This document shows, in pieces, positions 2,031 through 60,394 of a DNA stretch of 64,000 bases. The translations under genes and the position numbers were made by a program. The stretch is from positions 82,706-146,705 of the forward strand of contig WFMF01000041.1 in assembly GCA_011033025.1 (NCBI GenBank), in the 5' to 3' direction. The stretch comes from Beroe forskalii. Lineage: Eukaryota > Ctenophora > Nuda > Beroida > Beroidae. Each line of letters begins with the position of its first letter. Within the stretch, counting starts at the first letter, position 1. The notes beneath the pieces are model-generated. The model worked only from the letters and a program-made list of their open reading frames with translations, was not told the DNA's origin and did no database searches.

Positions 2031-2872
2031 CTCGGTGTTACAAATGGTAATATCAAAATATACATGCATAGACAATGTGATTATGTAAGGTCATTCCGCA
2101 ATCCACTTGTGACTATTTATGTTTTTCTGCTTCTTCCAACTGTCTTTGTTTCATTTCGTTTCCGTGATTGTTACACCTAGTGTTACGATGTCATAAGGTT
2201 TTGCTTGTCTACAGGGTTTCAGGGATTTAACAAGCGTTCCAGCTGTAAATGCAAAATGCCATTCAATGACTGTCCGAATCGGTTGATTCTAATATTTCCT
2301 TATAAGCAAACTGTGACGATTGAAACCCGAATCACAGCTTACTGTACAATGTAAAAGCATTTAAAACGTATTTGTTCTTGGCAGGGCTCGACCGGGGCCA
2401 CCGCCAAAATCACTGTCCCTTGCCCCGGCCTAATGTCGTGATTTTGCAAGGGATTCTATTTACGGGATTTCAGTTCAAGGTGGCCGCCACGAATTTGGGG
2501 GCAAATGTGATAATAATGCGAAATAATGTGAAAGTAATGTTTCCATGTCATTAAAACGTCTGGCTCGTTGGGATGCCACCCGTCCCAGACCCCTGTATAT
2601 AACCCTCTGAATGCCCCGGCTGGAATCCTGCCCCCGCCCAGCACTGTTTATTGGCCTTGTATTGTTAACTATGCAGCGAAATTGCGAAAGTCGAAAGTAC
2701 GACTGTTTAGCATGTATTGAATAGACCGGAAATGAATATCTGTCAGCTCATATAGCGTCAGGGAGGGGTTTCAAACTGCTGGCGAGTGAGGAGAGAGGTC
2801 TGGGCTTTACTTACTTGGCCAAAAATTCCAAGGTTTTCTTTTCAAGTATGTATTATTATGTCACTAAGAAAT

Positions 2873-3004
2873 ACAGTTACAGTTCGAACTGCAGTTTTGT
2901 GCGCGTGGCGTAAGTTTGCGGGCCAACAGGCATGCTATGTATATGTCTTTGCTCTCTGCAAACTTACAACCCGCACATGAATTTTCTGTTCGAACTGTCA
3001 CTGT
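2873..3004. repeat. Imperfect inverted repeat, ~49-bp arms
   Basis: Arms 2873-2921 and 2957-3004 both begin ACAGT.ACAGTTCGAAC and end at GTAAGTTTGC, with a ~35-base loop. This is a possible small foldback element. No target duplication was recognised. Confidence 0.6.
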
Positions 3005-3384
3005 TAGGACGTAAATACTACAGATTACTTTTGAGAGTTGGATTCCTTCTTCCTTGGAGTTTTTCAATTCATTGTTCTAATGGAAACAAAAGACCCAATA
3101 ATAAGCAATATAATGAACCTTAATAACGAGATCGTTTTGACCTAGGGTTTGGCTTATGCTGACTTCTGTAGTCAGTGAAGCTGTCTGCCAGCAGTGGAGA
3201 GGGAGGACATGGTTTAGAAATTATTGATATAAAATGTGACAGCTCACTAAGTGGCTACCTGGAAACTAGTCGGCTGTTTCATAATAATTCTTATGAAAGC
3301 CTGAGGCCCTGTTTTAAAGGCCTTTAGGTGGATCACATGTCTGTCATGTCTTGTCTTCATGGATGGAAATCCTCATACAGTCTA

Positions 3385-3463
3385 CTAAGGATTGAAAGTC
3401 TTGGTACTAAGGATTGAAAGTCTTGGTACTAAGGATTAAAAGTCTTCCTAAGGATTAAAAGTT
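3385..3463. repeat. 22-bp short tandem repeat
   Basis: Between three and four copies of a unit beginning CTAAGGATTGAAAGTCTTGG. The last copies are shortened and carry AAAAG in place of GAAAG. Confidence 0.85.
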
Positions 3464-3767
3464 TTGAAAAAGTGCGCAATTCTAGGAGGTCTATCTTCAC
3501 GGAATGCTGCCTCCTATAGAATGATATCCACCAGAGTCATACTCCCTTGATGACGTGTCTCTCAAACTCAAGTCATCTGTGATTTGGTTTTGAGCTCTAA
3601 TGACTAACTACACAGGTAGTTAGTGCAGCCAGTTTAATGATTCCACGCATAGCTTAACATATACAAATCAAGGCACAATTAAATGGAATTACTAATTTCG
3701 CTGCAGGGTATAATTAGGAACAATATAAATTACAGTTTCCCTGTTTATTATTCCCCGGGTAAGCCAA

Positions 3768-3996
3768 TAGGGTGCACCAAAAAAATTAAATTTTTGGTGC
3801 TCAACCCCTGAGCGATAGATCTCGGTGAGACAAGACCGAGGATATCCGGTTTTTTGAAATTGGACCCCGGGAACCCCTGGAGCGTTGACGATTTGTATCG
3901 GCCATACTTGTATGGAAGGCGCGGTATGGCGTGACCATCCGCGGATTCTACGCGCGCGCTTATATCCGCGCGCGCAAGATTCTGCTGCAGTTCCGC
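3768..3996 (+). repeat. Left terminal inverted repeat
   Basis: It pairs with 6624-6851. It starts TAGGGTGCACCAAAAAAATT and contains its own small inverted repeat, AAATTTTTGGTGC against GCACCAAAAAAATT. The inner ~35 bp (GCGCGC tracts) are the most diverged. Just inside it, GAAGTAGGGTGTACTTGACC occurs twice (about 4012 and 4042). Confidence 0.9.
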
Positions 3997-4852
3997 GAGA
4001 TATAGATCGAAGTAGGGTGTACTTGACCGATATTTGCCAAATCGAAGTAGGGTGTACTTGACCGTTATTTCAAGGGTACCAAATATAGTTTACAACAAAG
4101 GCGGAAGGCCGTGTTTATTGAAATATCACACGTGACTAGCTCCCAATATTAATGAGGGTGAAGTGGTGATGATGCTGAGCATTTGATAAACTGATCGACA
4201 TAGTATGGCCTATTGGGGTGGGATGAAGCAAATGACAGGACCAGTATGATATACTGCTGTGCATGTAGAACGACAGGGGACAATCCTGCTCACTAGGGGA
4301 CAATGTACATTGTACTCCCGTGTGTAGTGTCGGTGTGTAACTGTAGACTTGTGTAGGTCGGATGTAATCAGAAAATTTATAGATTTATCGCAAGCACAGT
4401 TTGCTGTCAGGGTGAAGGAGGCTGTACATCACTTCTTCTTCTTCAAACAGCGGAAGAGCACTGCACTGTTCTGTTCTGGTTCTTCCTGAACTAGTGGAAG
4501 GAAGCGTCATCAATGCTCAACTTCGTCTTACCCATAGAAGTTTGAAGACGGGTGAAGGCGCGGGTTAATGGTCAGTACGTCATCGGAGGTGAAGGGCAGG
4601 CCGTTACTGACAGGATGATGGGGGAGGAACCTCGAGGTAACCATAGGCAGAACTTAAGTGCTCGTTACTGACAGGATGAAATGTGATCTGAGAGCTTATT
4701 CAGGCTTAGAACTTCAGGTATGTCAGCGGCACTAACAGGGTTCGGATATCCTACATGATATGGAACAGATCATATTGCGTATTTTGCCCATGTTGTGCTG
4801 AAATTAAATTTTCTTACCACTCTTTTAATTTTCTTTCGCTCATTACTCAGAA

Positions 4853-6365
4853 AATAAACCTCGCGCTGAACTAAGCGTAAGAGAACTACCGATTTGCGTT
4901 GCTTTCACTCACGCTTTATCCATCAACCCATACACTGATCACGCTACATCCATCTACCCATACACTCACGCTACACACATCTACCCATACACTCACGCTA
5001 CATCCATCTACCCATACACTCACGCTACATCCATCTTCCCATACACTCACGCTACACTCATCTACCCATACACTGATCACGCTACACTCATCTACCCATA
5101 CACTCACGCTACACTCATCTACCCATACACTGATCACGCTACACTCATCTACCCATACACTCACGCTACACTCATCTACCCATACGCTGATCACGCTACA
5201 CTCATCTACCCATACACTCACGCTACATCCATCTTCCCATACACTCACGCTACACTCATCTACCCATACACTGATCGCGCTACATCCATCTACCCATACA
5301 CTCACGCTACACTCATCTACCCATACACCCATATTACTCCCGTACCTACCTCATAGCTCCATAGGTTCTCCCGCGTGGTACTGCCGCATATATAGGACCC
5401 CAGGGACTTCTGCAATAATTCGCTCAAAGGACGGTAAAATGACGGTTTAAAACAAATATACTGGGGTTGGGGGATAAAAATTTGAATACCAGCCGCATCA
5501 GAAGCCGATATTGCTAATAATCTCATCTGAGTCAAATTATATCTTGGATGAACTTGTAGCTATACGTTATCCAATGACGGGGGTGACACTGTCTGCGATG
5601 TCTAGTATCCACTAAGCTCTAACAGAGCCTGCTGAGCTTACATATATACTTCTATAGAAATAGCATTGCAATTGGGTCACACTTAAGCAATAGTCGATTC
5701 ACACTACTTGATTAATCTATAACTCGATTAAATCTGTATCGATGCTTGATTCATCATATATTTAAATTGAATCATCCCGTTCACAAGAAGGGGACAATCT
5801 CCGAGGATGGGGACAATTACTGAGTGAGCCGAGAGAGCGTGAGAACTCCCACGTTCTGGGCGATCGATTGTCCCCACTTTTGTCCCCACCTTTGTCCCTC
5901 ATTCTGGGAAAACAGCGGCTACAAAGTATCCTTTGGAGTGAGAATGTTGAGAGACTCATTATAATGAGCTATCATAGATAATGTCAATAGAGCTATTGAT
6001 AATATCAATAGAACTATCAGTATCAGTCACCACTCAGTTGCACTCAAATCCGTTTAATTCAGGTAAATGTTGCGTCCTTTTGTGCTTTACACTCTCGAAA
6101 TACATTTTGAGAGTCTATAGCGCAAACGGACGCAACATTTACGTGTTCTCAACGGATTTGAGTACAACTAGTGGAGACTGAGCAAATTTCGCTCAGTTAG
6201 TCAGATAATGAACCTCGCGCTGAACTAAGCGTAAAGAGAACTACCGATTTGCGTTGCTTTCAATCACGCTTTATCCATCTACCCATACACCCACGCTGCA
6301 ACCACGCGCAAAAGGACGCAAAATTTACGTGTTATAAACGGATTTGAGTACAACTGAGTGGGACT
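4853..6365. repeat. Internal duplicated modules of the foldback element
   Basis: A ~78-base module beginning AACCTCGCGCTGAACTAAGC occurs at 4855-4930 and again at 6210-6285, each time leading into the CATCTACCCATACAC repeats. A second module, GGACGCAACATTTACGTG followed by AACGGATTTGAGTAC, occurs at about 6127-6170 and 6313-6356, and inverted at about 6030-6080. The element has therefore grown by internal duplication. Confidence 0.75.
4908..5333. repeat. 27/30-bp minisatellite inside the foldback element
   Basis: About 15 copies of a unit built on CATCTACCCATACACT and CACGCTACACT. Some copies carry a 3-base GAT insertion (GATCACGC), giving 30-bp units that alternate with 27-bp ones. Copies of the same sequence in opposite orientation occur at about 6370-6530, for example TATGGGTAGATG. 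Both unit sizes are multiples of three, which explains long open frames on both strands that are unlikely to be genes. Confidence 0.95.
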
Positions 6366-6623
6366 GGTGTATGGGTTGCGTGTGTTGCGTGAGTATGGGT
6401 AGATAGTGTAGCGTCGGTGAAAGGGTAAATGGATGTAGCGTGAGGTGTATGGGTAGATGAGTGTAGTGCGAGTGTATGGTTAGATGGATGTGGCATTGAG
6501 GTGTAGGTGGAATGGATGAAGCGTGGGGTGGCAGGCTGAATAACTGTAATTCTTATGGGTAGATATATACTCAAGATGGTCTTTGTCAGTACACCTTCTT
6601 CACGGTCTATCTCTTTCCTTGAA

Positions 6624-6851
6624 CTGCAGCCCGGAGTCTTGCGGCGCGGATATAAGCAACGGCGCGGCCAGAATCCGCGGATGGTCACGCCATACCGCGC
6701 CTTCCATACAAGTATGGCCGATACAAATCGTCAACGCTCCAGGGGTTCCCGGGGCCCAATTTCAAAAAACCGGATATCCTTGGTCTTGTCTCACCGAGAT
6801 CTATCGCTCAGGGGTTGAGCACCAAAAATTTAATTTTTTTGGTGCACCCTA
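6624..6851 (-). repeat. Right terminal inverted repeat
   Basis: This is the reverse complement of the left TIR, ending GGTGCACCCTA. It is directly followed by the second copy of the 9-bp duplication GTAAGCCAA. Confidence 0.9.
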
Positions 6852-6860
6852 GTAAGCCAA

Positions 6861-7507
6861 GTAAATTGCGGGGAAGGAGGGCTCGCAGAACCTCCGACAT
6901 TACGACTAACCTCCCGCTCACTAACTCTACTGGAGATCTCCTCCACTAGTAGGCGAGTTAGATGACGTCATTGTCATAGTGCAGAATGAGCTGCTAGTGA
7001 CGCTCAGTCTCTATACTCCGCTTACTTGCAGACTTTCCCTTATTGGCCGTCTGAGCTCCTTCATAATGTTATATATATAATATATATAAGATGCGGAATA
7101 CCCGTATATTATATACTGCAATTAGCTTTTCCTCTGTTTCATAGACGTTTGATTTGCGACAGTAACTTGGTCCTCTAATGTTGCAGCTCCTTTACCTCCT
7201 CCCTGCTTCATGTATATCCCTATGGTAAAATATAGAGATGTTTCAAGTTACTGAACTGCCTCTTGCTTGCTCTAGCTCTCTTCCCTTTATATATCTTATG
7301 AAGCATTTTAGGATTTATTTTTAAATGGGTTGGGAAAGGTGGTCTTTTCAGTGGTTTAGCTAGTTGTTTGTGGGAAGATAGTGTTGTAGGTGGAGTGAAT
7401 TATAAACCTTCATCGTGACGTCATGCATTATAGTGCAACCAATAGCAGGGCTTTCCTAATTCCCATATATATCCCTGTTTATCATCCAGCACCACAGTTG
7501 TATGTCT
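6861..7507. other. Unique spacer, no gene recognised
   Basis: Between the foldback element and the 39-bp array. It contains a short TA-rich stretch (about 7069-7090). No coding signal was recognised. Confidence 0.5.
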
Positions 7508-9272
7508 CCTAGCAGGGTTCAGCCTGGGTATCTCTTCTTTTGGAACATTTCCCTAGCAGAGCCTGGGTATCTCTTCTTTTGGAACATTTCCCTAGCAGAG
7601 CCTGGGTATCTCTTCTTTTGGAACATTTCCCTAGCAGAGCCTGGGTATCTCTTCTTTTGGAACATTTCCCTAGCAGAACCTGGGTATCTCTTCTTTTGGA
7701 ACATTTCCCTAGCAGAGCTTGGGTATCTCTTCTTTTGGAACATTTCCCTAGCAGGGTTCAGCCTGGGTATCTCTTCTTTTGGAACATTTCCCTAGCAGAG
7801 CCTGGGTATCTCTTCTTTTGGAACATTTCCCTAGCAGAGCTTGGGTATCTCTTCTTTTGGAACATTTCCTAGCAGAGCCTGGGTATCTCTTCTTTGGAAC
7901 ATTTCCCTAGCAGAGCCTGGGTATCTCTTCTTTTGGAACATTTCCCTAGCAGAGCCTGGGTATCTCTTCTTTTGGAACATTTCCCTAGCAGAGCCTGGGT
8001 ATCTCTTCTTTTGGAACATTTCCCTAGCAGAGCCTGGGTATCTCTTCTTTTGGAACACTTCCCTAGCAGAGCCTGGGTATCTCTTCTTTGGAACATTTCC
8101 CTAGCAGAGCCTGGGTATCTCTTCTTTTGGAACATTTCCTAGCAGAGCCTGGGTATCTCTTCTTTTGGAACATTTCCCTAGCAGAGCCTGGGTATCTCTT
8201 CTTTTGGAACATTTCCCTAGCAGAGCCTGGGTATCTCTTCTTTTGGAACACTTCCCTAGCAGAGCCTGGGTATCTCTTCTTTTGGAACATTTCCCTAGCA
8301 AAGCCTGGGTATCTCTCCTTTTGGAACATTTCCCTAGCAGAGCCTGGGTATCTCTTCTTTTGGAACATTTCCCTAGCAGAGCCTGGGTATCTCTTCTTTT
8401 GGAACATTTCCCTAGCAGAGCCTGGGTATCTCTTCTTTTGGAACACTTCCCTAGCAAAGCCTGGGTATCTCTTCTTTTGGAACATTTCCCTAGCAGAGCC
8501 TGGGTATCTCTTCTTTTGGAACATTTCCCTAGCAGAGCCTGGGTATCTCTGCTTTTGGAACATTTCCCTAGCAAAGCCTGGGTATCTCTTCTTTTGGAAC
8601 ATTTCCCTAGCAGAGCCTGGGTATCTCTTATTTTGGAACATTTCCCTAGCAGAGCCTGGGTATCTCTTCTTTTGGAACATTTCCCTAGCAGAGCCTGGGT
8701 ATCTCTTCTTTTGGAACATTTCCCTAGCAAAGCCTGGGTATCTCTCCTTTTGGAACATTTCCCTCGCAGAGCCTGGGTATCCCTTCTTTTGGAACATTTC
8801 CCTAGCAAAGCCTGGGTATCTCTTCTTTTGGAACATTTCCCTAGCAGAGCCTGGGTATCTCTTCTTTTGGAACATTTCCCTAGCAGAGCCTGGGTATCTC
8901 TTCTTTTGGAACATTTCCCTAGCAGAGCCTGGGTATCTCTTCTTTTGGAACATTTCCCTAGCAGAGCCTGGGTATCTCTTCTTTTGGAACATTTCCTAGC
9001 AGAGCCTGGGTATCTCTTCTTTTGGAACATTTCCCTAGCAGAGCCTGGGTATCTCTTCTTTTTGGAACATTTCCCTAGCAGAGCCTGGGTATCTCTTCTT
9101 TTGGAACATTTCCCTAGCAGAGCCTGGGTATCTCTTCTTTTGGAACATTTCCCTAGCAGAGCCTGGGTATCTCTTCTTTTGGAACATTTCCCTAGCAGAG
9201 CCTGGGTATCTCTTCTTTTGGAACATTTCCCTAGCAGAGCCTGGGTATCTCTTCTTTTGGAACATTTCCCTA
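7508..9272. repeat. 39-bp minisatellite, left block (~45 copies)
   Basis: The unit contains GGAACATTTCCCTAGCAGAG and GGGTATCTCTTCTTTT. Copies are very uniform, with scattered single-base variants (AAAGCC, CACTTCC, CTCCTTTT) and a few 1-base deletions. The period is 13 codons and no frame gains a stop, so frames of over 300 residues run on both strands. The array ends in mid-unit at CCCTA, where the LINE begins, and resumes at 16862. Confidence 0.97.
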
Positions 9273-9435
9273 TTTTTATTTTTTTTATTTAAAATCACAA
9301 ATAGGATACACAACAAATTATACATTGTCACTTGCCCTATATAAAATAATTCATGAAACATGAGGATGCCCCAACCAAAAGAATTGAATAATCATAGTTG
9401 TATAAAAATAAACATAGTAGAGTCTAACTTGTTGC

Positions 9436-9864
9436 CAGGCCCGTAGACAGAGGGGGGGCTAGGGGGGCTGCAGCCCCCCTCGGAAGAAAAGGTACCATTT
9501 CAAAAAATAGTTAGAATGAAAGTTTTTTGACTGATAGTCATAATTATATACTTTGGCTTGGTTAAATAGTGGCAGTTTACTAGTTTAATCTTATTCTTAC
9601 TGTTATAGCTTGTTTATATTTGATTGTATACTTTTTCGAAGCTCTAATTTTGACAAATACCGTCCTGTACATTTCCTGTACATTTCTTTAGTGTAAAATT
9701 CATCCTGCAGCACCCCAATTTCCCTAAAATCGTTCGGGGGCTCCGCCCCCAAACCCCCTGGCAGGGGCTCGCCCCTGCACCCCGCTGGGGGCACGGCCCC
9801 AGACCCCTGCCGCAGCTTGCTTGAGTGGGGCGCAAGGGCCCCTCCGGAACTGGCTACGGGCCTG
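9436..9864. mobile_element. hAT-like MITE nested in the LINE 3' region
   Basis: 429 bp with termini CAGGCCCGTAG and CTACGGGCCTG, flanked by a perfect 8-bp duplication CTTGTTGC (9428-9435 and 9865-9872). An 8-bp target duplication and a CAG-starting TIR are typical of the hAT superfamily. The interior has G/C palindromes such as GGGGCTCCGCCCC near 9738-9750. It has no transposase. It entered the LINE after the LINE entered the minisatellite, which gives a relative chronology. Confidence 0.93.
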
Positions 9865-10263
9865 CTTGTTGCATATGCTATGAGTGGGGCACGTGCAGAG
9901 TAGTCGAAACTACTCTATGCTGCACAATTACGCCCTCAAAAATCTTAAATCACACAGATTGGTTAGTTACATAGTTGGTAAAATTGCATTAAAAGTAGAT
10001 GGTAAAAATTTATCTTTAAAATATAATAAAATAATGATAAATTACTTTTATTACTCTGAGTGCTTGAGTGATATAAATCACTGAAATATTCAAAAAAGAT
10101 GTATGTGATGTGGGTGGTGAACCTGAACCTGGTGATCCCTATGAACATGATATAAATCCCTTGTATACCTTTTCCCTTTCTTCATGTTCCTCACCTATCT
10201 TCCTGTCCCTTACCCTTATCATAGGAAAGCACATGTTTAGGGATATTAACATATTAACCAAAA

Positions 10264-13200
10264 TTAGTCAAATTCACTGTCCGCTTTCATCCAGAGATAT
10301 TCCTTGAGTTTAGTCTTAAAGGTTGTTAAGCAATTTTCAGATCTTATATTCAATGGAACTTCATTCCAAAGTAAATGTGTACGGTAGAAGTATGAATTTT
10401 TAAAAACATCTATTCTAAGTTTTATGGAGCATTCTAATTGAAGTTCATCAGATGATGACATACTCCTAGTATATCGAGTTAATTTTGGATCAGGGAGGTG
10501 CTTCTTCCTAAGATATTCAGGGATACTTGAAAATGGGCTAGGATGATTAAACATCTTATAGAACAAGACTAAGTCGTTATAATCAAACTTGTATTTCATT
10601 GGCAGGACATCTAGATTCTTTAATTTAAGGTGGTATTCTGATTTGGTATAGCTGCAAAAATCTTCACTGAAAACCCACTTAACGGCTCTTTTCTGCATGG
10701 CTTCAAACTTATCAATGTTTGTTTTGTGCACTGGCCTCCAAATTTGTGAACAGTGCTCAAACTGTGACCGAATTATAGCTAAAAATAAAATTTTACGTTG
10801 ATTTGTGTTTCTATTGAAGGAGCAATTTCTTCTAAGAAGGCCAATTTTTGACTGGCCTTATTTAGTAATTTTTGTGCTGGGCATTCCATTTTAGAGACGG
10901 GACAACTTGCACTCCTAAATCTTTTCGTTATCCGTGTAGTCAAGTTTCGTATCATAGAGATAGTATTCGAAATTACTGCTTGCCTTATTACTTAATTTAC
11001 AATTGAGAACTTTACATTTATCAAGGTGGAAGCGCATTTTATTACGTTCAGCCCACTTTTGGAGAGAGCTGATATCTTGTTGCAAGATTACACGATCGTG
11101 TTCATTGTTAATTTGCCTAAAGATTTTCATATCATCAGCATAAAGAAGAATCTTGGTTGAGATGTCGATAACCTCAGTTATATCGTTAATAAACAATACA
11201 AAGAGCAATGGACCTAAAATAGATCCTTGGGGTACCCCAGACAGAACTGGGGACATGCCTGAGAGAGAACCATCAATGGATACGCACTGTTGCCTTCCTT
11301 TAAGATATTCTTTAATGAATCTCAGTAGGTACCCATCAATGCCATAAGAAAATTTCAGTTTCTCTAAAATTATGTCATGATTTACACTATCAAATGCTTT
11401 TGCAAAATCGAAATATATAACATCCGTGGAGATTTTGCCATTTAGATTTAACGTAAGGGTGTCAACGTAATTTATCATTTGTGTTGTGCATGAGCGATTT
11501 GGCAAAAATCCGTGCTGTAGGGTAGAAATTTTGTACTTGCATTTTTCATGGAGGATATTGTGCAAACTTTTTTCAAATATTTTCATTACTAAGCTAGTGA
11601 GAGAAATGGGCCTGTAATTTTCAACGTCATCCTTCCTTCCTTTTTTATGAATAGGTACTACGTTAGCATTTTTCCAATCCTGTGGCAGCTCTCCAAGCTG
11701 GTAAGATTTATTAAAGAGTAGTGCAAGTGGTAAGCACAGAGAGCCGGCACAGTTTTTCAAAATGTACCCACTAATTCCGTCCGGTCCTGGGGCTTTGCTA
11801 GGCTTGACATTTTTGAGATAGCTAAAAATTTCCGCAGGAGAGAATTCCTCAGGGGCAAGGAAGTCTTGTAAGTTAATATCATATTTGCTTGCCTGGGAAA
11901 ATTGATCACAGAAAAATTTGTTAAAAATATCGCATTGGTCCTGGGTTTCAGAACGGTATCTGCCTTTATATTGTACAGATTCAGGAATGCGTCCACATTT
12001 TGTGCTAGATTTGATGAATGACCAAAATTTTTGTTGACCTGGTTGCTACCTACATGTTCAGAATTACACGGATCAGCTAAAATAAAATCACTTTTCTTTT
12101 CAAGGACTCGATTTTTGAATTTGATTTTAAATTCATCAAGTGCTTCTTTATCACTATCTAATCCAGATTTTTTATAAATTTTTCTAAGCTTATGTTTCTT
12201 TTTAGACATCATAAAAATTTCGGAGTCGAACCACGGTGGCTTTATGCGAAATTTAACGGACTTCATCGGAATATGGTTCCTCATAGCAATGTCCAATTTA
12301 GATTTAAAAAGGTTCCATGCTTGTGAGATTCCTAGGGTTCTAAACATGCTTGACCAGTCGTAGGCATAAAGTTCATTTTCAAGTTCAGGCCAATTCGCTT
12401 CATTATAGTTAAACACTCTACGCTTCTTAACTTTCCTCCTATTAACGTTTTTCTTTATTTTGAATTTAATAGAGTAATGATCTGAAGGGCAAATTAGATC
12501 AGGGGTAATGCAAATATCTTTAATGAGACCAGGCTGGTTCGTAAGTAGTAAGTCTAGGGTATTTCCATCTTTATGAGTAGGTTCGTTTATAAGGTTTTGA
12601 AATCCTAACTCAAAGAAAAGTTTGATATAATCGTTGTGAAGCTCATTAGTAGAGATAGGGCAGGACCAGTCCTTAACCGAGCTTAAGTTAAGATCACCTA
12701 TGATGACAATTTTAGAGTACTTCTTACATAATTCCCTATAATATATTTCAATGGAGTCTTAAGTGTCCTTTTTAGAGTAGTCGTATCTATAAAATGTACT
12801 GACACATAATTTGGAAGAATCATTAAATTTTATCTCAATCGAAAGAACAGGTAAGCCATCTGGATTTTTGACATTAACTTCCTTAGTTTCGATATCGAGT
12901 CCTTGTTTAGCAAGAATAAAAACGCCACCTCCCCCCACCTTGTTATACTTTTTCTTATCTATCTTAGATCTATCATTTCGCCACATTTTATAAAATTCTT
13001 CTTCGATAATTTCGTTGTTATGTATATGCTCATTAATCCATGATTCATTGACAATAACAATATCTGGTTTATTCATGTGCAAAAAATTTTGGAAGTCAAG
13101 TAATTTATGAGTCTGGAAGATTGGTTGCTTTCCGCGCATGCTAGACATCAATATAAAGCCCTGTGCATTGCAGTATGCAACAGACAGGTCTTTACTCATT

Positions 13201-13823
13201 GGGCCAGGATTAAGTATACTTGGATTTACAACTACTATCAAGGCCAAGTTGAGGAGCGTCAGATAATACGAGCATGTGTTAATGAAATATGATGAAATAT
13301 TCAAATTCTTCGACCTAAGTTTCACACGCATCAGACGAAGTCGATATAACAGTGGATACTGGTATATATTCAGGTAGTAGGACGACGATTTGTTAACTAG
13401 AAACGGCAGTAAATTACAAAATAGTCTATTTGATAGAACAGTCATTAAGACAGCCCAGTTCACCAGGATCCTAGTTTTCGAATTAAGAAGATATAGTTGA
13501 CTATCGACCGCTTTAAACGCAACTTGTTTGATAAATCGGTTTGGGCAATCGCTGGTATTGACTGTTAGTATGGTAAAGCTAAGTAGGAGTAAAAATAGAC
13601 TCAAGAATAAAGAAACACCTCCCGAGATCAAATCTTTTCTAAGAAAATTTTCTTGCTGTTCATTATTTTCCATGAGCCTAAAAATTGCAGAGAGGCTAAT
13701 AAATTGCAAAATTGTAGAGTAAGATAAGAAAGTACTTACAGGATCGTTTGTTTTCCTCCTTTGGCCTGTCCCTCCTCCGAATAAACCTGTCACCTGCCTG
13801 TGATGTTGTGCTGAAACTCCCAT
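10264..13823 (-). pseudogene. LINE ORF2: endonuclease-reverse transcriptase, broken
   Basis: This polyprotein would nick target DNA and copy the element RNA onto the nick (target-primed reverse transcription). Residues 1-200 of the first open segment are hydrophobic and end in an NPGP motif. An APE-type endonuclease follows, with the Glu of VNESW, GDLN (about 12685-12700) and SDH (about 12475-12485). The reverse transcriptase has YFDFAKAFD, GVPQGSILGP and YADD (about 11130-11142). The C-terminal part has the usual SQIW, MQKRAVKW and LWNEVP blocks. Damage seen: an in-frame TAA at 12759-12761, a frameshift near 12040, and at least two shifts between about 10855 and 10925. Everything else is readable, so decay is recent. 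The copy is not autonomous. Confidence 0.95.
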
Positions 13824-13980
13824 GATGGTTGAGCCAGTTGATAATGAAGGGGCAGGATTACCTGAGTATTAAAAGCAATTTAGTTCATTTTAAGATTTCT
13901 CCTCCAAACTTCCAAAGATAGTGGCCTAGCCCGAAAACACCCCACCTACATCATAGATCAAAGAGAAAAATGTTAATAAT

Positions 13981-15576
13981 TTAATGCCCATTTAGAAATG
14001 GTCTATATCCACAGGGTTCTGCCTGATGCCTACTTATGTGTTCCTTCATCAGTTTCTTACCACGCTCATTCATGTGCAACCCGTCTCTAACGAAGAAACC
14101 TAAATCAATGAAGCCATTAGGCTGCAGATACTGGTAAAAGACATTAATCAACTTTACCCTTTGAAAAGAAATTTCTAAATCAAACAGAAAGTTATTGAAG
14201 GACTTAATTCTGACTAGGTGATTGAACCTGTGGCAAATTCTAGGGGGAACATTGAATATCATGACGCGTGCATTAGGAAACAATTTTAAAAGCTCATTAA
14301 TAAGTCTATCATATTGGTTCATGATCTTAAGCTGTGATAGGTTTAGGTCACTGAGGTCATTGGTACCTACACATACCGTCACCGACTTAATTCGCTCGTA
14401 CTCTGAGACAGGCAGCTCGTCCCGATTGTCCTGGAGCATCGGGATGATGTCAGGTATCTCTCCTCCTCCTCTGGTGATGGTGAGGCAGTTGGCGATGTTG
14501 ATGCCGCGAGTCAGGGAATCCCCAATGACCAGGTGCTCGGGGACCTCTGACATCGAAACCACCTGGCTCCTGCCATTAGTCCTGGAGAAGGCAGGGACGA
14601 TGGCCCGTCTGGCTACTGGTGGGGGTATCCTACTGGGGTCTGCTAGGCTGTCACCTTGCGGGGCTGGTGTGGCAATAGGTGGCTCCTGCTGCTGCTCGCC
14701 ACTAACCTGGGGTTCCTCTGGGTCAGATGCCGCAAGCCTCCTGAAAGAGAGACACCACCTGGTAGCCCCCGCTGAACCTGTGTCTGTTCTAGACACCCCG
14801 TGTCTCAGGTTTCTCTGGCACCCGGGAGACATGACCAGCAGTGATCTGTGCTTCAGCTCCTGTGTGATGATTGGAGCACTGCTAGTGAGATCGTAGAAAT
14901 CTATGGATCTCGAAGCACCCAGTGAAACATTGCAGATTGGGTGCTGCTGATCAATGACCCTTTCATTGTCCTGGTGCGGTTTGACCTGAGCACCTCCTCC
15001 CTGATAGCAGGACACAAGACAACAGTCCAGGCTAGTTTCCATGGTCCTGTTAAGTGTCCTCATCAGCATATCTATCTGGGGGTATGAGGTGATGGGGGAG
15101 GCTTGATGCTGGGTGCCTCCAAACTTATAGGGCTGATCTGACCTGGCTAACCACTTGTAGCCCAGCTGCCCATTGTCACAGCCAACGAAGAGACCCATCA
15201 CTTCATTGAGCAGTTCTTCCTCAAGGTCCCCACTAATCCAGTCCAGGCTCTCTGAAAACTGGACGAAGTCATGCAGCTGTCTCATCTGAGGGGGTGACAC
15301 GTCCTGGCACGGTAGTTCCTCAGACTCGGACTCAGTGATCTGACCGTCTGAGTAGTCCTCCTCGTCAGTCCCAGGGTTGGAAAGATGCTCAACCCTGTCT
15401 TCCATGACCTTAATCAATTTAATGAGCAAATCGATGTCTTGAGTCTCCTTAATTAAGTTCTCGTAAGTTTCTATGTTTGTTACTTCCATGATTGATGTTG
15501 ACAGGGTGAGTCCGGATTGGGATGCACCAGGGGCAGTCAGAGGGATGGGTCTCATGGGGCGCAGGGATGTGCACAT
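13981..15576 (-). CDS. LINE ORF1: AlkB-like dioxygenase fused to SGNH hydrolase
   Basis: Intact, 531 residues. Residues 30-65 are acidic and helical. Residues ~110-282 match an AlkB-type 2-oxoglutarate/Fe(II) dioxygenase: iron ligands H201-x-D203 and H259, and the 2-oxoglutarate signature RWCLSFR (R273, R279), which parallels R-x-N-x-T-F-R of AlkB with the same spacing. YKFGG and SPGCQ fit the nucleotide-lid and late-strand positions. A Pro/Gln-rich linker follows (~283-345). Residues ~347-515 form an SGNH hydrolase: GDSL with S354, GTND (404-407) and DGLH (D498, H501). SGNH esterase domains are known in ORF1 of CR1-like LINEs. AlkB enzymes remove N-methyl lesions from nucleic acids, and some plant RNA viruses carry one. 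A role in demethylating element RNA is inference. The start could also be M30 (15489). Confidence 0.9.
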   Translation of the reverse strand: MCTSLRPMRPIPLTAPGASQSGLTLSTSIMEVTNIETYENLIKETQDIDLLIKLIKVMEDRVEHLSNPGTDEEDYSDGQITESESEELPCQDVSPPQMRQLHDFVQFSESLDWISGDLEEELLNEVMGLFVGCDNGQLGYKWLARSDQPYKFGGTQHQASPITSYPQIDMLMRTLNRTMETSLDCCLVSCYQGGGAQVKPHQDNERVIDQQHPICNVSLGASRSIDFYDLTSSAPIITQELKHRSLLVMSPGCQRNLRHGVSRTDTGSAGATRWCLSFRRLAASDPEEPQVSGEQQQEPPIATPAPQGDSLADPSRIPPPVARRAIVPAFSRTNGRSQVVSMSEVPEHLVIGDSLTRGINIANCLTITRGGGEIPDIIPMLQDNRDELPVSEYERIKSVTVCVGTNDLSDLNLSQLKIMNQYDRLINELLKLFPNARVMIFNVPPRICHRFNHLVRIKSFNNFLFDLEISFQRVKLINVFYQYLQPNGFIDLGFFVRDGLHMNERGKKLMKEHISRHQAEPCGYRPFLNGH

Positions 15577-16861
15577 CGGAGGGATGGACGAGATTAGCAG
15601 AGGGAGCCGCCTCCCAGGCAGTCAGCACACAGCGGCAGCGTGCGGGGTGTAGCCACCAGCAGTCACCTGTCAGGAAAAGAAGAAGGCAGTCGAAACTAAA
15701 ACCAAAATCGATGAAGGGAGAAATAATTTGTCAGCTAATCAAGGCTTGAATAATTTTCACTGTCAGGGGTAAATTTGCTTATCGTCATAATTATTTAAAA
15801 TTGGATACATACATACAGACACCTACACATACACATTGAACACTGATTACAGAGAATGAATAAGTGTGTCACATGCTGCGTAGCATCAAGTATAGGTATT
15901 AGTGGCATTAGACAATGGCTAGTGGTCATGACTAAATGAGGTGAATAATGAAGGGGGGTGGGGGGAAGGGCAGGGAAAAGTTACTGTAACTCAAAATAAG
16001 ATCATAAAAATAATATCAGCAAATAAATAATTCATATAAAATCCTAGCAAGTCACAAATTTGCCATCTTTATGATGGGGATTAGTAGATTGTGCCCTATT
16101 GGCAGCCGAGTTTCTAAACCCTACGTACTATATCCTTATATCTTCAGGCAGTTTGATCAAAAACTTTCCAGAAAAGTTACTAATCTTTAAAAATTTTCAA
16201 AGCCGAAACAGTAAAATACAAGTTATCTGAATATATTCAAATAGTAATTGTTGTTAATTTTGTATGATATATAACTGGTGACACACATTCTGCAGGTCAG
16301 GCCACTGAGGGTAAACGAAGTTCCCTCAGAGGGTTAGCTGACCTGCGAAGGTTGTCACCCACTTGCGGCAGAGAAACATGCGTTTAAGGCCACGTTTTGG
16401 CTGGGCTGATTTGCAATTAACCTACTAGCCTAGACAACACTTTATACTTTCATACCATTACCAAATTTGAGGATGATCAACTTTTTGGTTAAGGGAAGGA
16501 GCCATGTGTGTGTAGGTTGAGTGTTAATGATTTGTGAGTATGTCTATACAAAGGACAATGACAATACACAACAAAACATCAAGATACTTAACTTATGAAG
16601 GAGGTCAGTTGCCAGGCTTCTGATGAGGCACCCCGCACGCCACCGCTGCACGCCTCTCACCTAGGGAGGCCGGCAACCCACCGCACACACGTCCATCCTC
16701 CTCCGAGCACCCCCCACGCACCAGGAACCAGAGCCCACGTCATGCCCCCAAGGAAACACTAGCCCGCCCCTTCATCATTGCCCCGACGTAACCGTTTAGT
16801 TCTCCATCCGTTAATTTACATTGCTCATCCTCAAATTTGATTGTATAAAGTAGTGTTGTAA
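15577..16861 (-). other. LINE 5' region
   Basis: This lies upstream of ORF1 on the minus strand. The outermost ~250 bases (16600-16800) are strongly G-rich on the sense strand, as in many LINE promoters. A multi-step hairpin (16277-16359) lies within it. A strong 3' splice-site-like sequence, TTCTTTTCCTGACAG, ends at 15667 on the sense strand, 90 bases before the ORF1 start. No open frame of note is present. Confidence 0.55.
16277..16359. repeat. Three-step hairpin in the LINE 5' region
   Basis: Nested pairing: GGTGACA (16277-16283) with TGTCACC (16353-16359); GCAGGTCAG (16292-16300) with CTGACCTGC (16338-16346); CTGAGGG (16305-16311) with CCCTCAG (16323-16329). All three stems are perfect and coaxial, so an RNA structure is plausible. 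The function is unknown. Confidence 0.8.
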
Positions 16862-17138
16862 AGCAGAGCCTGGGTATCTCTTCTTTTGGAACATTTCCCT
16901 AGCAGAGCCTGGGTATCTCTTCTTTTGGAACATTTCCCTAGCAGAGCCTGGGTATCTCTTCTTTTGGAACATTTCCCTAGCAGAGCCTGGGTATCTCTTC
17001 TTTTAGGGAACATTTCCCTAGCAGAGCCTGGGTATCTCTTCTTTTGGAACATTTCCCTAGCAGAGCCTGGGTATCTCTTCTTTTGGAACATTTCCCTAGC
17101 AGAGCCTGGGTATCTCTTCTTTTGGAACATTTCCCTCG
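16862..17138. repeat. 39-bp minisatellite, right block (~7 copies)
   Basis: Same unit and orientation as the left block at 7508-9272, starting in register at AGCAGAGCC. One copy carries a 4-5-base insertion (TTTTAGGGAACATTTCC near 17000-17015). It is followed by unique sequence from CGTTATTATATGC. Confidence 0.97.
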
Positions 17139-47261: not shown

Positions 47262-49735
47262 CTACTCCTCCCCCTCCAAATTACTACCCCCTCCAAATTA
47301 CTACCCCCTCCAAATTACTACCCCCTTCAAATTACTGCCCCCTTCAAATTACTACTACCCTCCAAATTTCTACTACCCCTCCAAATTACACCCCTCCAAA
47401 TTACTACCCCTCCAAATTACTACCCTCCAAATTACTACCCCCTCCAAACACCCCTCCAAATTACTACCCCTCCAAATTACCCCTCCAAATTACACCCCTC
47501 CAAATTACTACCCCCTCCAAATTACTACCCTCCAACACAAATTACTACCCCTCCAAATTACTACCCTCCAAATTACTACCCCTCCAAATTACTACCCCCT
47601 CCAAATTACTACCCCCTCCAAATTACTACCCCTCCAAATTACTACCCCTCCAAATTACTACCCTCCAAATTACTGTGGGTCAAATTACTACTCAACCCCT
47701 CCAAATTACTACCCCTCCAAATTACGCCACCTCAAATTACTTTACCCTCCAAATTACTACCCCCTTCAAATTACTACCCCCTCCAAATTACTACCCTCCA
47801 AATTACTACCCCTCCAAATTCTGCCCCTCCAAATTACTACCCCTCCAAATTACCCCTCCAAATTACTACCCCTCCAAATTACCCTTTCCTGGGTTCCAAA
47901 TTACTACCCCTCCAAATTCTACCCCTCCAAATTTACCCCCCTCCAAATTACTACCCTCCAAATTACTGCTACCCCCTCCAAATGACACCCATTCCAAATG
48001 GGTACCTGACAAATTTCTACCCCCTCAAATCCAAATTACTACCCCCTCCAAATTACTACCCCTCCAAATTACTACCCCTCCAAATTACTACCCCTCAAAT
48101 TACTACCCCTCCAAATTACTACCCCTCCAAATTACTACCCCCTCCAAATTACTACCCCCTCAAATTACTACCCTTTCAAATTACCCCCTCCAAATACATT
48201 TCAAATTACTACCCCCCTTCCAAATTACTACCCCTTTCAAATTACACCCCCTCCAAATTACTTGGTCACATTACCCCCTCCAAAACCCTCCAAAACCCTA
48301 CCCCTTCCAAATTACTACCATTTCAAATTACTACCCCTCAAATTACTACATGACACATTACTACCCCCTTCCAAATTGCTACCCCTCCAAATTACTACCC
48401 CTCCAAATTACGCCCCCTGTGGTGCTACCCAAATTACTACCCCTTTCAAATTACTACGTTCCAAATTACTACCCCTCCAAATTACTGTCTCAACTCTACT
48501 GCCTTTTCCAAATTACTACCCCTCCAAAACCTCCAAATTACTACCCCTCCAAATTACTACCCCCTCCAAATTACTACCCCTCCAAATTGCTACCCCTCCA
48601 AATTTACACCCCTCCAAATTACTACCCCTCCAAATTACTACCCCCTTTCAAATTACTACCCCCTCCAAATTACTACCCCCTCCAAATTACTACCCCCTTC
48701 CAAATTACTACCACCTTCAAATTACTACCCCCTTCCAAATTACTACCCCCTCCAAATTACTACCCTCCAAATTACCAAAATTACTACCCCTCCAAATTAC
48801 TACCCCTCCAAATTACTACCCCTCAAATTCTACCCCTCAAATTACTACCCCTCCAAATTACTACCCCCTCCAAATTACTACCCCCTCCAAATTACTACCC
48901 CCTTCAAATTACTACCCCCCTACCCCTCCAAATTACTACCCCTCCAAATTGTACCTCCAAATTACCCCCTCAAATTACTAGCCTCCAAATTACTACCCCT
49001 CCAAATTACTCCAAATTACTACCCCTCCAAATTACTACCCCTCCAAATTACTACCCCTCCAAATTACTACCCCCTCCAAATTACTACCCCTCCAAATTGC
49101 CTCCAAATTACCCCCTCCAAATTACTACCCCCTCCAAATTACTACCCCTCCAAATTACTACCCCCTCCAAATTACTACCCCTCCAAATTACTACCCCTTC
49201 AAATTACTACCCCTCCAAATTACTACCCCTCCAAATTACTACACCTCCAAATTACTACCTCCAAACTACCCCTCCAAATTACTACCCCCCAAATTATTAC
49301 CCCTCCAAATTACTACCCCTCCAAATTACTAACCCTTCAAATTACTTCCCCTCCAAATTACTACCTCCAAATTACTACCCCTCAAATTACTACCCCTCCA
49401 AATTACTTTCACCCCCTCCAAATTACTACCCCTCCAAATTACTACCCCTTCAAATTACTACCCCTCAAATTACTACCCTCCAAATTACTACCCCCTTCAA
49501 ATTACTACCCCCCTCCAAATTACCGCTACCCCCTCCAAATTACTACCCCCTCCAAATTACTACCCCTCCAAATTACTACCCCCTCCAAATTACTACCCCC
49601 TCCAAATTACTACCCCCTCCAAATTACTACCCCCTCCAAATTACTACCCCCTCCAAATTACTACCCCTCCAAATTACTACCCCCTCCAAATTACTACCCC
49701 CTCCAAATTACTACCCCCTCCAAATTACTACCCAG
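47262..49735. repeat. 2.5-kb irregular 14-16-bp minisatellite (~155 copies)
   Basis: The unit is CCCCTCCAAATTACTA with variable C-run length, so period and frame drift. The array contains inserted scraps that match neighbouring sequence, such as GTGGGTCAAATTACT (~47677), TTGGTCACATTA (~48261) and CATGACACATTA (~48348). These resemble the GTGGGTCACATGACACATT repeat just to the left (46821-46965). The unit lacks stops in the plus frames, which yields an artefactual Pro/Lys/Leu/Tyr frame of 843 codons. Confidence 0.97.
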
Positions 49736-58523: not shown

Positions 58524-60394
58524 TATGACTTCTGAGGGCATTGAGCAGGGACTTCTGAGGGTAGCAGGGACTTCTGAGGGTATTGAGCAGGGACTTCTGG
58601 GGGTATAGAGCAGGGACTTCTGAGGGTATAGAGCAGGGACTTCTGAGGGTATAGAGCAGGGACTTCTGAGGGTATAGAGCAGGGACTTCTGAGGGTATTG
58701 AGCAGGGACTTCTGAGGGTATAGAGCAGGGACTTCTGAGGGTATAGAGCAGGGACTTCTGAGGGTATAGAGCAGGGACTTCTGAGGGTATAGAGCAGGGA
58801 CTTCTGAGGGCAGCAGGGACTTCTGAGGGCAGCAGGGACTTCTGAGGGTATTGAGCAGGGACTTCTGAGGGTATAGAGCAGGGACTTCTGAGGGTATAGA
58901 GCAGGGACTTCTGAGGGTATAGAGCAGGGACTTCTGAGGGTATAGAGCAGGGACTTCTGAGGGTATAGAGCAGGGACTTCTGAGGGTATAGAGCAGGGAC
59001 TTCTGAGGGTATAGAACAGGGACTTCTGGGGGTATAGAGCAGGGACTTCTGAGGGTATAGAGCAGGGACTTCTGAGGGTATAGAGCAGGGACTTCTGAGG
59101 GTATAGAGCAGGGACTTCTGAGGGTATAGAGCAGGGACTTCTGAGGGTATAGAGCAGGGACTTCTGAGGGTATAGAGCAGGGACTTCTGAGGGTATAGAG
59201 CAGGGACTTCTGAGGGTATAGAGCAGGGACTTCTGAGGGTATAGAGCAGGGACTTCTGAGGGTATAGAGCAGGGACTTCTGAGGGTATAGAGCAGGGACT
59301 TCTGAGGGTATAGAGCAGGGACTTCTGAGGGTATAGAGCAGGGACTTCTAGAGAGGGTATAGAGCAGGGACTTCTGAGGGCATAGAGCAGGGACTTCTGA
59401 GGGTATGAGCAGGGACTTCTGAGGGGTATGAGCAGGGACTTCTGAGGGTATAGAGCAGGGACTTCTGAGGGTATAGAGTAGGGACTTCTGAGGGTATAGA
59501 GCAGGGACTTCTGAGGGTATAGAGTAGGGACTTCTGAGGGTATAGAGCAGGGACTTCTGAGGGTATAGAGTAGGGACTTCTGATAGCAGGGACTTCTGAG
59601 GGTATAGAGCAGGGACTTCTGGGGGTATAGAGCAGGGACTTCTGAGGGTATAGAGCAGGGACTTCTGAGGGTATAGAGCAGGGACTTCTGAGGGCAGCAG
59701 GGACTTCTGAGGGTATAGAGCAGGGACTTCTGGGGGTATAGAGCAGGGACTTCTGAGGGTATAGAGCAGGGACTTCTGAGGGTATAGAGCAGGGACTTCT
59801 GAGGGTATAGAGCAGGGACTTCTGAGGGTATAGAGCAGGGACTTCTGAGGGTATAGAGCAGGGACTTCTGAGGGTATAGAGCAGGGACTTCTGAGGGTAT
59901 AGAGCAGGGACTTCTGAGGGTATAGAGCAGGGACTTCTGAGGGTATAGAGCAGGGACTTCTGAGGGTATAGAGCAGGGACTTCTGAGGGTATAGAGCAGG
60001 GACTTCTGAGGGTATAGAGCAGGGACTTCTGAGGGTATAGAGTAGGGACTTCTGAGGGTATAGAGCAGGGACTTCTGAGGGTATAGAGTAGGGACTTCTG
60101 AGGGTATAGAGCAGGGACTTCTGAGGGTATAGAGCAGGGACTTCTGATGGCAGGGACTTCTGAGGGTATAGAGCAGGGACTTCTGAGGGTATAGAGCAGG
60201 GACTTCTGAGGGTATAGAGCAGGGACTTCTGAAGGTATAGAGCAGGGACTTCTGAGGGTATTGAGCAGGGACTTCTGAGGGTATTGAGCAGGGACTTCTG
60301 AGGGTATTGAGCAGGGACTTCTGAGGTTATAGAGCAGGGACTTCTGAGGGTATAGAGCAGGGACTTCTGAGGGCAGCAGGGACTTCTGAGGGTA
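58524..60394. repeat. 23-bp minisatellite, main block (~80 copies)
   Basis: The unit contains GAGCAGGGACTTCTGAGGGT. Variants are TTGAGC for TAGAGC, GGGGGT, and a shorter GGGCAGCAGGG unit seen singly or paired (58810, 59696, 60374). The consensus has no stop on the minus strand in any frame. That yields a 646-codon Ser/Leu/Pro frame which I regard as artefact. The same unit reappears at 63766. Confidence 0.97.

Follow-up and report, generated by a model that had tools for sequence, protein, structure and literature searches.

A 64,000-nucleotide stretch of the genome of the ctenophore Beroe forskalii (assembly GCA_011033025.1, contig WFMF01000041.1, positions 82,706 to 146,705 of the forward strand; hereafter the window) contains a long interspersed nuclear element (LINE) whose first open reading frame (ORF1) is predicted to encode an AlkB dioxygenase resembling ALKBH2/ALKBH3, fused to an SGNH esterase. 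We propose that the AlkB part would clear N1-methyladenine (m1A) and N3-methylcytosine (m3C) from the RNA of the element and from its single-stranded DNA, a reading to which, taken as a whole, we assign a probability of roughly 0.45. Judged from their sequences, such elements appear to come equipped with an enzyme of their own that cleans the nucleic acid being copied.

An AlkB dioxygenase and an SGNH hydrolase in one ORF1

The features of ORF1 are given in window positions, and residue numbers follow its 546-codon open frame.

13981..15489, minus strand: LINE ORF1, probably 502 amino acids, from the methionine common to the sister copies (stop codon at 13981-13983)
14740..15162, minus strand: predicted AlkB-type 2-oxoglutarate (2OG)-Fe(II) dioxygenase domain, residues 154-294 (PF13532, 63.9 bits against a cut-off of 31.2, E 2.9e-17)
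14974..14976, minus strand: H216, predicted iron ligand (H in 54/54 domains)
14968..14970, minus strand: D218, predicted iron ligand (D in 54/54 domains)
14800..14802, minus strand: H274, predicted iron ligand (H in 54/54 domains)
14758..14760, minus strand: R288, predicted 2OG contact (R in 54/54 domains)
14740..14742, minus strand: R294, second arginine of the AlkB signature (R in 54/54 domains)
14560..14727, minus strand: linker between AlkB and SGNH, residues 299-354 (pN/pS, defined below, 0.68)
14032..14538, minus strand: predicted SGNH hydrolase domain, about residues 362-530, limits set by hand (GDSL, GTND, DGLH)

The ORF1 frame is open at 13984-15621. Counted from its first ATG on the minus strand it gives 531 residues, in agreement with the intact frame of that length reported in a preliminary description of this DNA. 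The protein itself probably has 502 residues and starts at window position 15489, because the first methionine of the corresponding frames in the sister copies L009-L013 (518-519 codons) matches residue 45 of the 546-codon frame. The iron and 2OG residues that had been listed as H201, D203, H259, R273 and R279 are all present and correspond to H216, D218, H274, R288 and R294 in the numbering used here. The expected Pfam profile, 2OG-FeII_Oxy_2, matched the frame strongly, at about twice its cut-off. The domain had been called complete, which holds for the catalytic core but not for the N-terminal part; the latter lies outside the Pfam match, which begins at profile position 47 of 194.

The second domain was likewise recovered as described, with GDSL, GTND and DGLH all found in ORF1. 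GDSL occurs twice, at residue 323 in the linker and at residue 367, and the latter is likely to be SGNH block I; GTND is at 419 and DGLH at 513. The Pfam GDSL lipase profiles match within residues 405-529, PF00657 above its cut-off (26.1 bits against 23.6, E 1.1e-5) and PF13472 slightly below (30.6 bits against 32.9, E 5.9e-7). When 12 ORF1s were inspected with a loose pattern, blocks I and III were found in all of them and block V in 11; the frame of the twelfth, L020, ends ahead of block V. An endonuclease-reverse transcriptase adjoins ORF1 on the same strand, as had been noted (Pfam Exo_endo_phos_2, E 1.8e-6; RVT_1, E 2.2e-32).

A 224-codon open frame runs antisense to ORF1 (window 14222-14896, plus strand) and has equal length in the window and in L009-L014. 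It is probably a by-product of codon use on the sense strand.

Relationship of the AlkB domain to known dioxygenases

Among chains in the PDB the best match of the single window sequence was an ALKBH2 chain (E 1.7e-4). A profile of 14 AlkB domains, made from the window and 13 other hand-picked places and searched against the same chains, placed ALKBH2 (2e-27) and ALKBH3 (9.5e-26) on top and all others at 6e-10 or worse. These were E. coli-type AlkB (6e-10), a P8A3.02c chain that we take to be from fission yeast (2.6e-5) and ALKBH8 (4e-5), followed by an N6-methyladenine (6mA) demethylase (3e-4), ALKBH5 (0.009) and ALKBH1 (0.02), and no chain named FTO was among the matches up to E 0.1. By profile comparison, then, the LINE AlkB enzymes are nearest to ALKBH2/ALKBH3 and far from ALKBH5.

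This placement bears on the alternative that the enzyme erases N6-methyladenosine (m6A), or a similar regulatory mark, from element RNA and thereby hides the element from host RNA surveillance. An AlkB of an orchid Ty3/Gypsy element does have RNA demethylase activity in vitro, but according to the same source it nests among AlkBH5 homologs (PMC9289625, the part available), whereas the LINE domains match ALKBH2 at 2e-27 and ALKBH5 at 0.009. Erasure of m6A is in our estimate unlikely, and removal of m1A/m3C-type lesions is favoured over it on grounds of sequence likeness.

Four AlkB places of the genome, L029-L032, look like host genes by sequence. They are the four strongest PF13532 places and have no listed reverse transcriptase (RT) within 6 kb downstream; L031 matches ALKBH2 (9e-53) and L029 matches ALKBH3 (2.7e-31), while L030 and L032 were counted as host-like by their grouping with L029 in a tree (support 97/97). 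This tree of 35 domains separates the remaining 31 rows from the host-like four with support of 92/91, just short of the strong mark of the tree tool, and resolves the deeper order among the 31 only in part. No grouping of element AlkBs with the host ALKBH2- or ALKBH3-like genes was found in it. As far as the tree indicates, the element AlkBs are kin of the host ALKBH2/3 but not orthologs. The pattern could go back to a single ancient capture of an ALKBH2/3-like gene, or to a small number of captures, and later spread. The AlkBs of L016-L018 gave no PF13532 match at E 0.01 and were assigned by 37-39% identity to the window domain.

Conservation and selection

The three iron ligands and both arginines (HxD...H, R-x5-R) are intact in 54 of 54 AlkB domains, as is the glutamate two residues past the aspartate, and nearby columns vary; the mean identity among 50 of the domains, with the four host-like rows excluded, is 32%. 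The 54 domains (35 plus 19) were hand-picked from known loci, places near an RT, strong Pfam matches and host-like genes, and do not represent a random draw from the 150 scored places described below: decayed places are under-represented, and membership of an element was shown for part of the set only.

Six ORF1 copies, those of the window and L009-L013, are open over the full protein and are 89-100% identical to the window. The ratio of nonsynonymous to synonymous differences per site (pN/pS, Nei-Gojobori), pooled over the 15 non-independent pairs from these six sequences, was 0.17 for ORF1 as a whole, 0.19 for the N-terminal part, 0.14 for AlkB (residues 150-298), 0.68 for the linker and 0.11 for SGNH (residues 355-546). 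For five more divergent pairs the ratio of nonsynonymous to synonymous substitution rates (dN/dS) was 0.12-0.29, dS being saturated in two of these pairs. The comparison across copies that had been called for thus points to purifying selection on AlkB and SGNH, with a far more relaxed linker, and the earlier suggestion that ORF1 has been kept by selection is borne out both by its pN/pS and by the five cofactor residues in every domain of the set. By these measures the AlkB cofactor residues and both ORF1 domains are under purifying selection.

The conserved residues also bear on a possible non-catalytic role. Pfam reported no RNA recognition motif (RRM) in the window ORF1, and the AlkB fold might be kept for binding single-stranded nucleic acid in place of the missing RRM, with catalysis being secondary. 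The esterase ORF1 proteins in RepBase (2013) all lack an RRM or other known RNA-binding domain (PMC3905857, in the part available), in agreement with such a role, but binding alone would need none of the five cofactor residues, which are invariant among variable columns. We therefore consider this explanation quite improbable.

The window copy and its sister copies

The window element has the layout of a LINE, with ORF1 followed by an APE endonuclease and RT, an A-rich 3' end and repeated copies in the genome. It is a non-LTR (lacking long terminal repeats) retrotransposon of CR1/L2-like type, as judged by its layout. Further features are as follows.

9273..16861, minus strand: whole LINE copy, outer limits being those of the flanking 39-bp minisatellite arrays
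10264..13868, minus strand: ORF2 (endonuclease and RT), interrupted, in pieces 13868-12759, 12758-11757, 12045-10915 and 10857-10264
9436..9864, strand not assigned: insert of about 430 bp absent from L010, seen as a homology gap between window positions 9865 and 9435, near the 3' end

The copy sits inside a 39-bp minisatellite, with arrays at 7521-9272 and 16862-17136 that share one 39-bp unit on both sides. Homology to the sister copy L010 sets in at about 16827 and runs as far as the A-rich tail at about 9287-9273, with 97.9% identity over 6 kb. In L010 and L013 ORF2 is intact as a single frame of 1202 codons, and that of L010 matches PF03372 and RVT_1. Because of these intact frames and the high identity to L010, the window copy is merely a recent, damaged member of a family with intact members. 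The decayed ORF2 had been taken as a hint that ORF1 acts in trans; this inference does not stand, since two sister copies have an intact ORF2.

The window as a whole is rich in minisatellites (105 Tandem Repeats Finder rows, overlaps included), with long arrays at 7521-9272, 47271-49733 and 58527-60394. In L012 (C581) the window-family copy keeps ORF1 but only the start of ORF2, and about 1 kb downstream of it lies a second AlkB frame (4231-5160, minus strand) with 32% identity.

Recurrence of AlkB ORF1s across the genome

The genome itself (216 Mb in 1134 contigs) was searched at the protein level. With the window protein 83 match rows were obtained, several being fragments of a single place, and PF13532 gave at least 150 AlkB places above the cut-off (150 of 189 candidates were scored), 140 of which have no stop in the matched stretch. 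For RVT_1, 150 places out of 2862 candidates were scored, and all counts of AlkB-RT pairs are for this reason lower bounds. At least 28 of the 150 AlkB places have a scored RVT_1 within 6 kb downstream on the same strand. At the control positions the numbers were 0 for downstream on the opposite strand and, for upstream, 2 on the same strand and 1 on the opposite one. In 22 of the 28 places the distance from AlkB to RT is 2.5-2.76 kb. A pooled set, to which nine AlkB places from the search with the window protein, judged by eye to be outside the 150, and RT rows from two further ORF2 searches were added (52 of 71 and 37 of 47 rows, those dropped being mostly short or repeated pieces), raised the count to at least 39 of 159 AlkB places with a listed RT, against 0, 2 and 2 at the same control positions. 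Only for the places with a listed RT do these counts indicate a LINE. A listed GDSL place (57 in total) lies within 1.5 kb on the same strand of 22 of the 150 AlkB places, downstream in 19 and upstream in 3.

The spacing is relevant to a trivial explanation, namely that a host ALKBH gene or pseudogene lies beside a LINE by chance. The genome does have separate ALKBH2- and ALKBH3-like genes from which such a neighbour could come, but the ORF1 frame and the sequence around it recur in six near-identical copies at separate sites, and the distance from AlkB to RT is near-constant at 22 places. Such a coincidence is scarcely conceivable, and we have rejected it.

An AlkB-SGNH ORF1 together with an endonuclease-RT frame, whole or broken, was found in the window family and in L016, L018, L022 and L023. 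L021 has an AlkB-SGNH ORF1 followed by an ORF2 whose start weakly matches a finger profile (C1_1, 16.5 bits, below cut-off). In L024 a PHD-like match (21.6 bits, below cut-off) precedes AlkB and SGNH in ORF1, and the next frame has a PHD match above cut-off (28.3 bits). L028 has an AlkB ORF1 and then an endonuclease frame (PF03372, 3.1e-9). On C558 the AlkB, GDSL and RVT_1 places follow in succession, and the stretch L050 there comprises an SGNH-like end and an endonuclease-RT frame. L017, L019 and L020 have an ORF1 but no same-strand ORF2 match with the queries used, and L024 and L026 reach the ends of their contigs. The RT domains fall into two groups, with identities of 53% (L010/L022) and 42% (L021/L050) within and 35-37% between the groups, and by this measure the AlkB ORF1 is therefore carried by at least two RT lineages.

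In L022 (C193) an RT-matching piece on the opposite strand (4981-6519, minus) lies between the endonuclease parts of the AlkB-LINE, which suggests a nested insertion. A search of viral contigs with the window protein yielded 8 stretches that fit a pattern, none of which encodes a relative, and a search for tRNA genes found none. COX1 gave one match (C1134:40-1344, L049), in an AT-rich stretch of 20% GC; this COX1 looks highly derived, with TGA standing for Trp and AGA found at positions at which other animals presumably have Arg, and it suggests a ctenophore mitochondrial genome.

A Helitron with AlkB and SGNH

One AlkB place belongs to a DNA element. In L027 (C847:363000-372900) a single open frame of 2026 codons (2677-8754) contains SGNH (11-170), AlkB (246-376), DUF6570 and Helitron_like_N (1752-1952; PF14214, 7.2e-24) in this order, the reverse of the AlkB-SGNH order of the LINEs, and long proline-rich repeats connect the SGNH-AlkB N-terminus to the Helitron part. 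The frame that follows runs for 396 codons, up to where the stretch ends, and drew no Pfam match at 0.01. L025 has the same SGNH-AlkB order and pairs with L027 in the tree (100/99), although the position of the pair among the other rows is poorly supported (35/10). Neither three LINE ORF2s nor a Helitron frame, used as tblastn queries, matched anything in the 9.9 kb of L025, whose contig is outside the Helitron list. The genome has 20 Helitron_like_N places, and an AlkB place lies within 8 kb of one of them. When same-strand GDSL places up to 15 kb away were considered, two more (C1099:6245-14261 and C432:166483-174568) proved to be preceded by a GDSL/SGNH place at a distance of about 7-8 kb, and no AlkB place is listed for either contig.

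A broader, tentative reading, for which we see about one chance in three, is that AlkB and SGNH form a mobile accessory module, shared by at least two LINE lineages and one Helitron, that would repair alkylated bases on exposed single-stranded nucleic acid. Helitrons move as DNA, and single-stranded DNA is common to the routes of LINEs and Helitrons. Being one case, the Helitron could also represent a single capture. If it is general, it argues, given this DNA route, against a role confined to RNA such as the erasure of m6A.

The Helitron has to be weighed as well with regard to DNA methylation. The enzyme might counter transcriptional silencing by acting on 5-methylcytosine (5mC) or 6mA, either in the element itself or at its target. 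That ALKBH2 and ALKBH3 can oxidise 5mC (PMC7968990, the part available) and that a DNA element also has an AlkB are both in line with such a role. The DNA N6-methyladenine demethylase chains, on the other hand, were matched at 3e-4 only. Furthermore, oxidation of 5mC is a side activity of ALKBH2/3. Our estimate for a role in DNA methylation is accordingly low.

Proposed role in the copying of the element

According to the reading that we prefer, clearance of m1A and m3C, the ORF1 protein would coat or accompany the element RNA in a ribonucleoprotein particle (RNP), and its esterase part may tether this particle to membranes or shape it there, a role that has been proposed for ORF1 proteins of the esterase type in other elements. 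The SGNH domain of the ORF1 protein of ZfL2-1 binds phospholipids and liposomes (PMC3905857, in the part available). The substrates of the AlkB part would be the element RNA and the single-stranded DNA that arises as it is copied, from both of which it would oxidatively strip methyl groups on the Watson-Crick face (m1A, m3C). m1A and m3C are substrates of AlkB and belong to the modifications that block reverse transcription (available part of PMC7968990), so that an element that clears them would be expected to make more full-length copies.

Several observations weigh against this reading. Some related LINEs of this animal apparently lack AlkB. The window family is not among them, as both domains are kept in all six full-length copies, and the loss of AlkB foreseen as a possible objection did not occur there. 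In another LINE family, represented by L021, AlkB stands beside 4 of 11 ORF2s, and the other 7 of the 11 ORF2 rows that reach the N-terminus have no listed AlkB within 6 kb upstream (the eleventh row is on C1047, a contig without a listed AlkB place, and weak AlkBs of the L016-L018 type would be missed). Genes like ALKBH2 and ALKBH3 are also present in the host, separate from the elements, and the part of ORF1 ahead of the Pfam AlkB match has no profile match. ORF1 of ZfL2-1 was dispensable for retrotransposition in a HeLa assay (PMC3905857, from the part available). As ALKBH2/3 oxidise 5mC too, likeness to this subfamily leaves the substrate unfixed (PMC7968990, likewise in part).

Retrotransposons are usually viewed as depending on the host for nucleic-acid repair. 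If the module is indeed shared, transposons of this animal would carry a DNA/RNA repair enzyme of their own. Whether chemical damage or methylation of element RNA or complementary DNA limits transposition would become a testable question, for which the genome provides dozens of natural variants.

Comparison with known systems

The closest solved relatives of the element domains are ALKBH2 and ALKBH3, with which they share the iron and 2OG residues and an H-x-D-[DN]-E stretch, whereas next to the host-like ALKBH2/3 genes of the same genome they form a separate branch.

No AlkB-bearing LINE was found in searches of an open-access library; subscription journals and Repbase entries lie outside its scope, and an earlier report is possible. 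Within this scope the opinion that an AlkB-SGNH pairing is not a standard LINE architecture was upheld, and the orchid Gypsy element was the only AlkB-bearing transposon encountered. The word "oxygenase" occurs 0 times in the available parts of two ORF1 papers (PMC3905857 and PMC4120745), and PMC11294593 and PMC6327408, as far as their available parts go, concern host genes.

Enzyme domains that recur in unrelated classes of elements have precedents in the accessory ORFs of bdelloid rotifer retroelements (GDSL, DEDDy; PMC5408684) and in the Texim SGNH of fish Helitrons (PMC4021074). "AlkB" is found 0 times in the available part of the former paper and "dioxygenase" 0 times in that of the latter. 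In B. forskalii, unlike in these cases, AlkB is paired with SGNH, both in LINEs and in a single Helitron.

LINEs of the CR1, L2 and RTEX groups with an esterase-type (type IV) ORF1, such as zebrafish ZfL2-1, have the same SGNH ORF1 upstream of an endonuclease-RT frame, but here an AlkB dioxygenase precedes the esterase; the addition of an AlkB enzyme to an esterase-type LINE ORF1 is what appears to be new. The orchid Gypsy_Pa_2799 is likewise a retrotransposon with an AlkB-family dioxygenase (PMC9289625, the part available). It is, however, a plant LTR element with an ALKBH5-like enzyme in an additional ORF, whereas here the enzyme is ALKBH2/3-like, part of a LINE ORF1 and joined to SGNH. Plant RNA viruses (Alpha- and Betaflexiviridae, Closteroviridae) are also selfish elements with an AlkB of their own, a likeness drawn by description (available part of PMC9289625). 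A strategy borrowed from RNA viruses, or convergent with theirs, as the preliminary description had it, would be conjectural, the closest solved relatives being ALKBH2 and ALKBH3. A selected and recurrent ALKBH2/3-like LINE enzyme would be an animal counterpart of the AlkBs of plant RNA viruses and the orchid Gypsy element.

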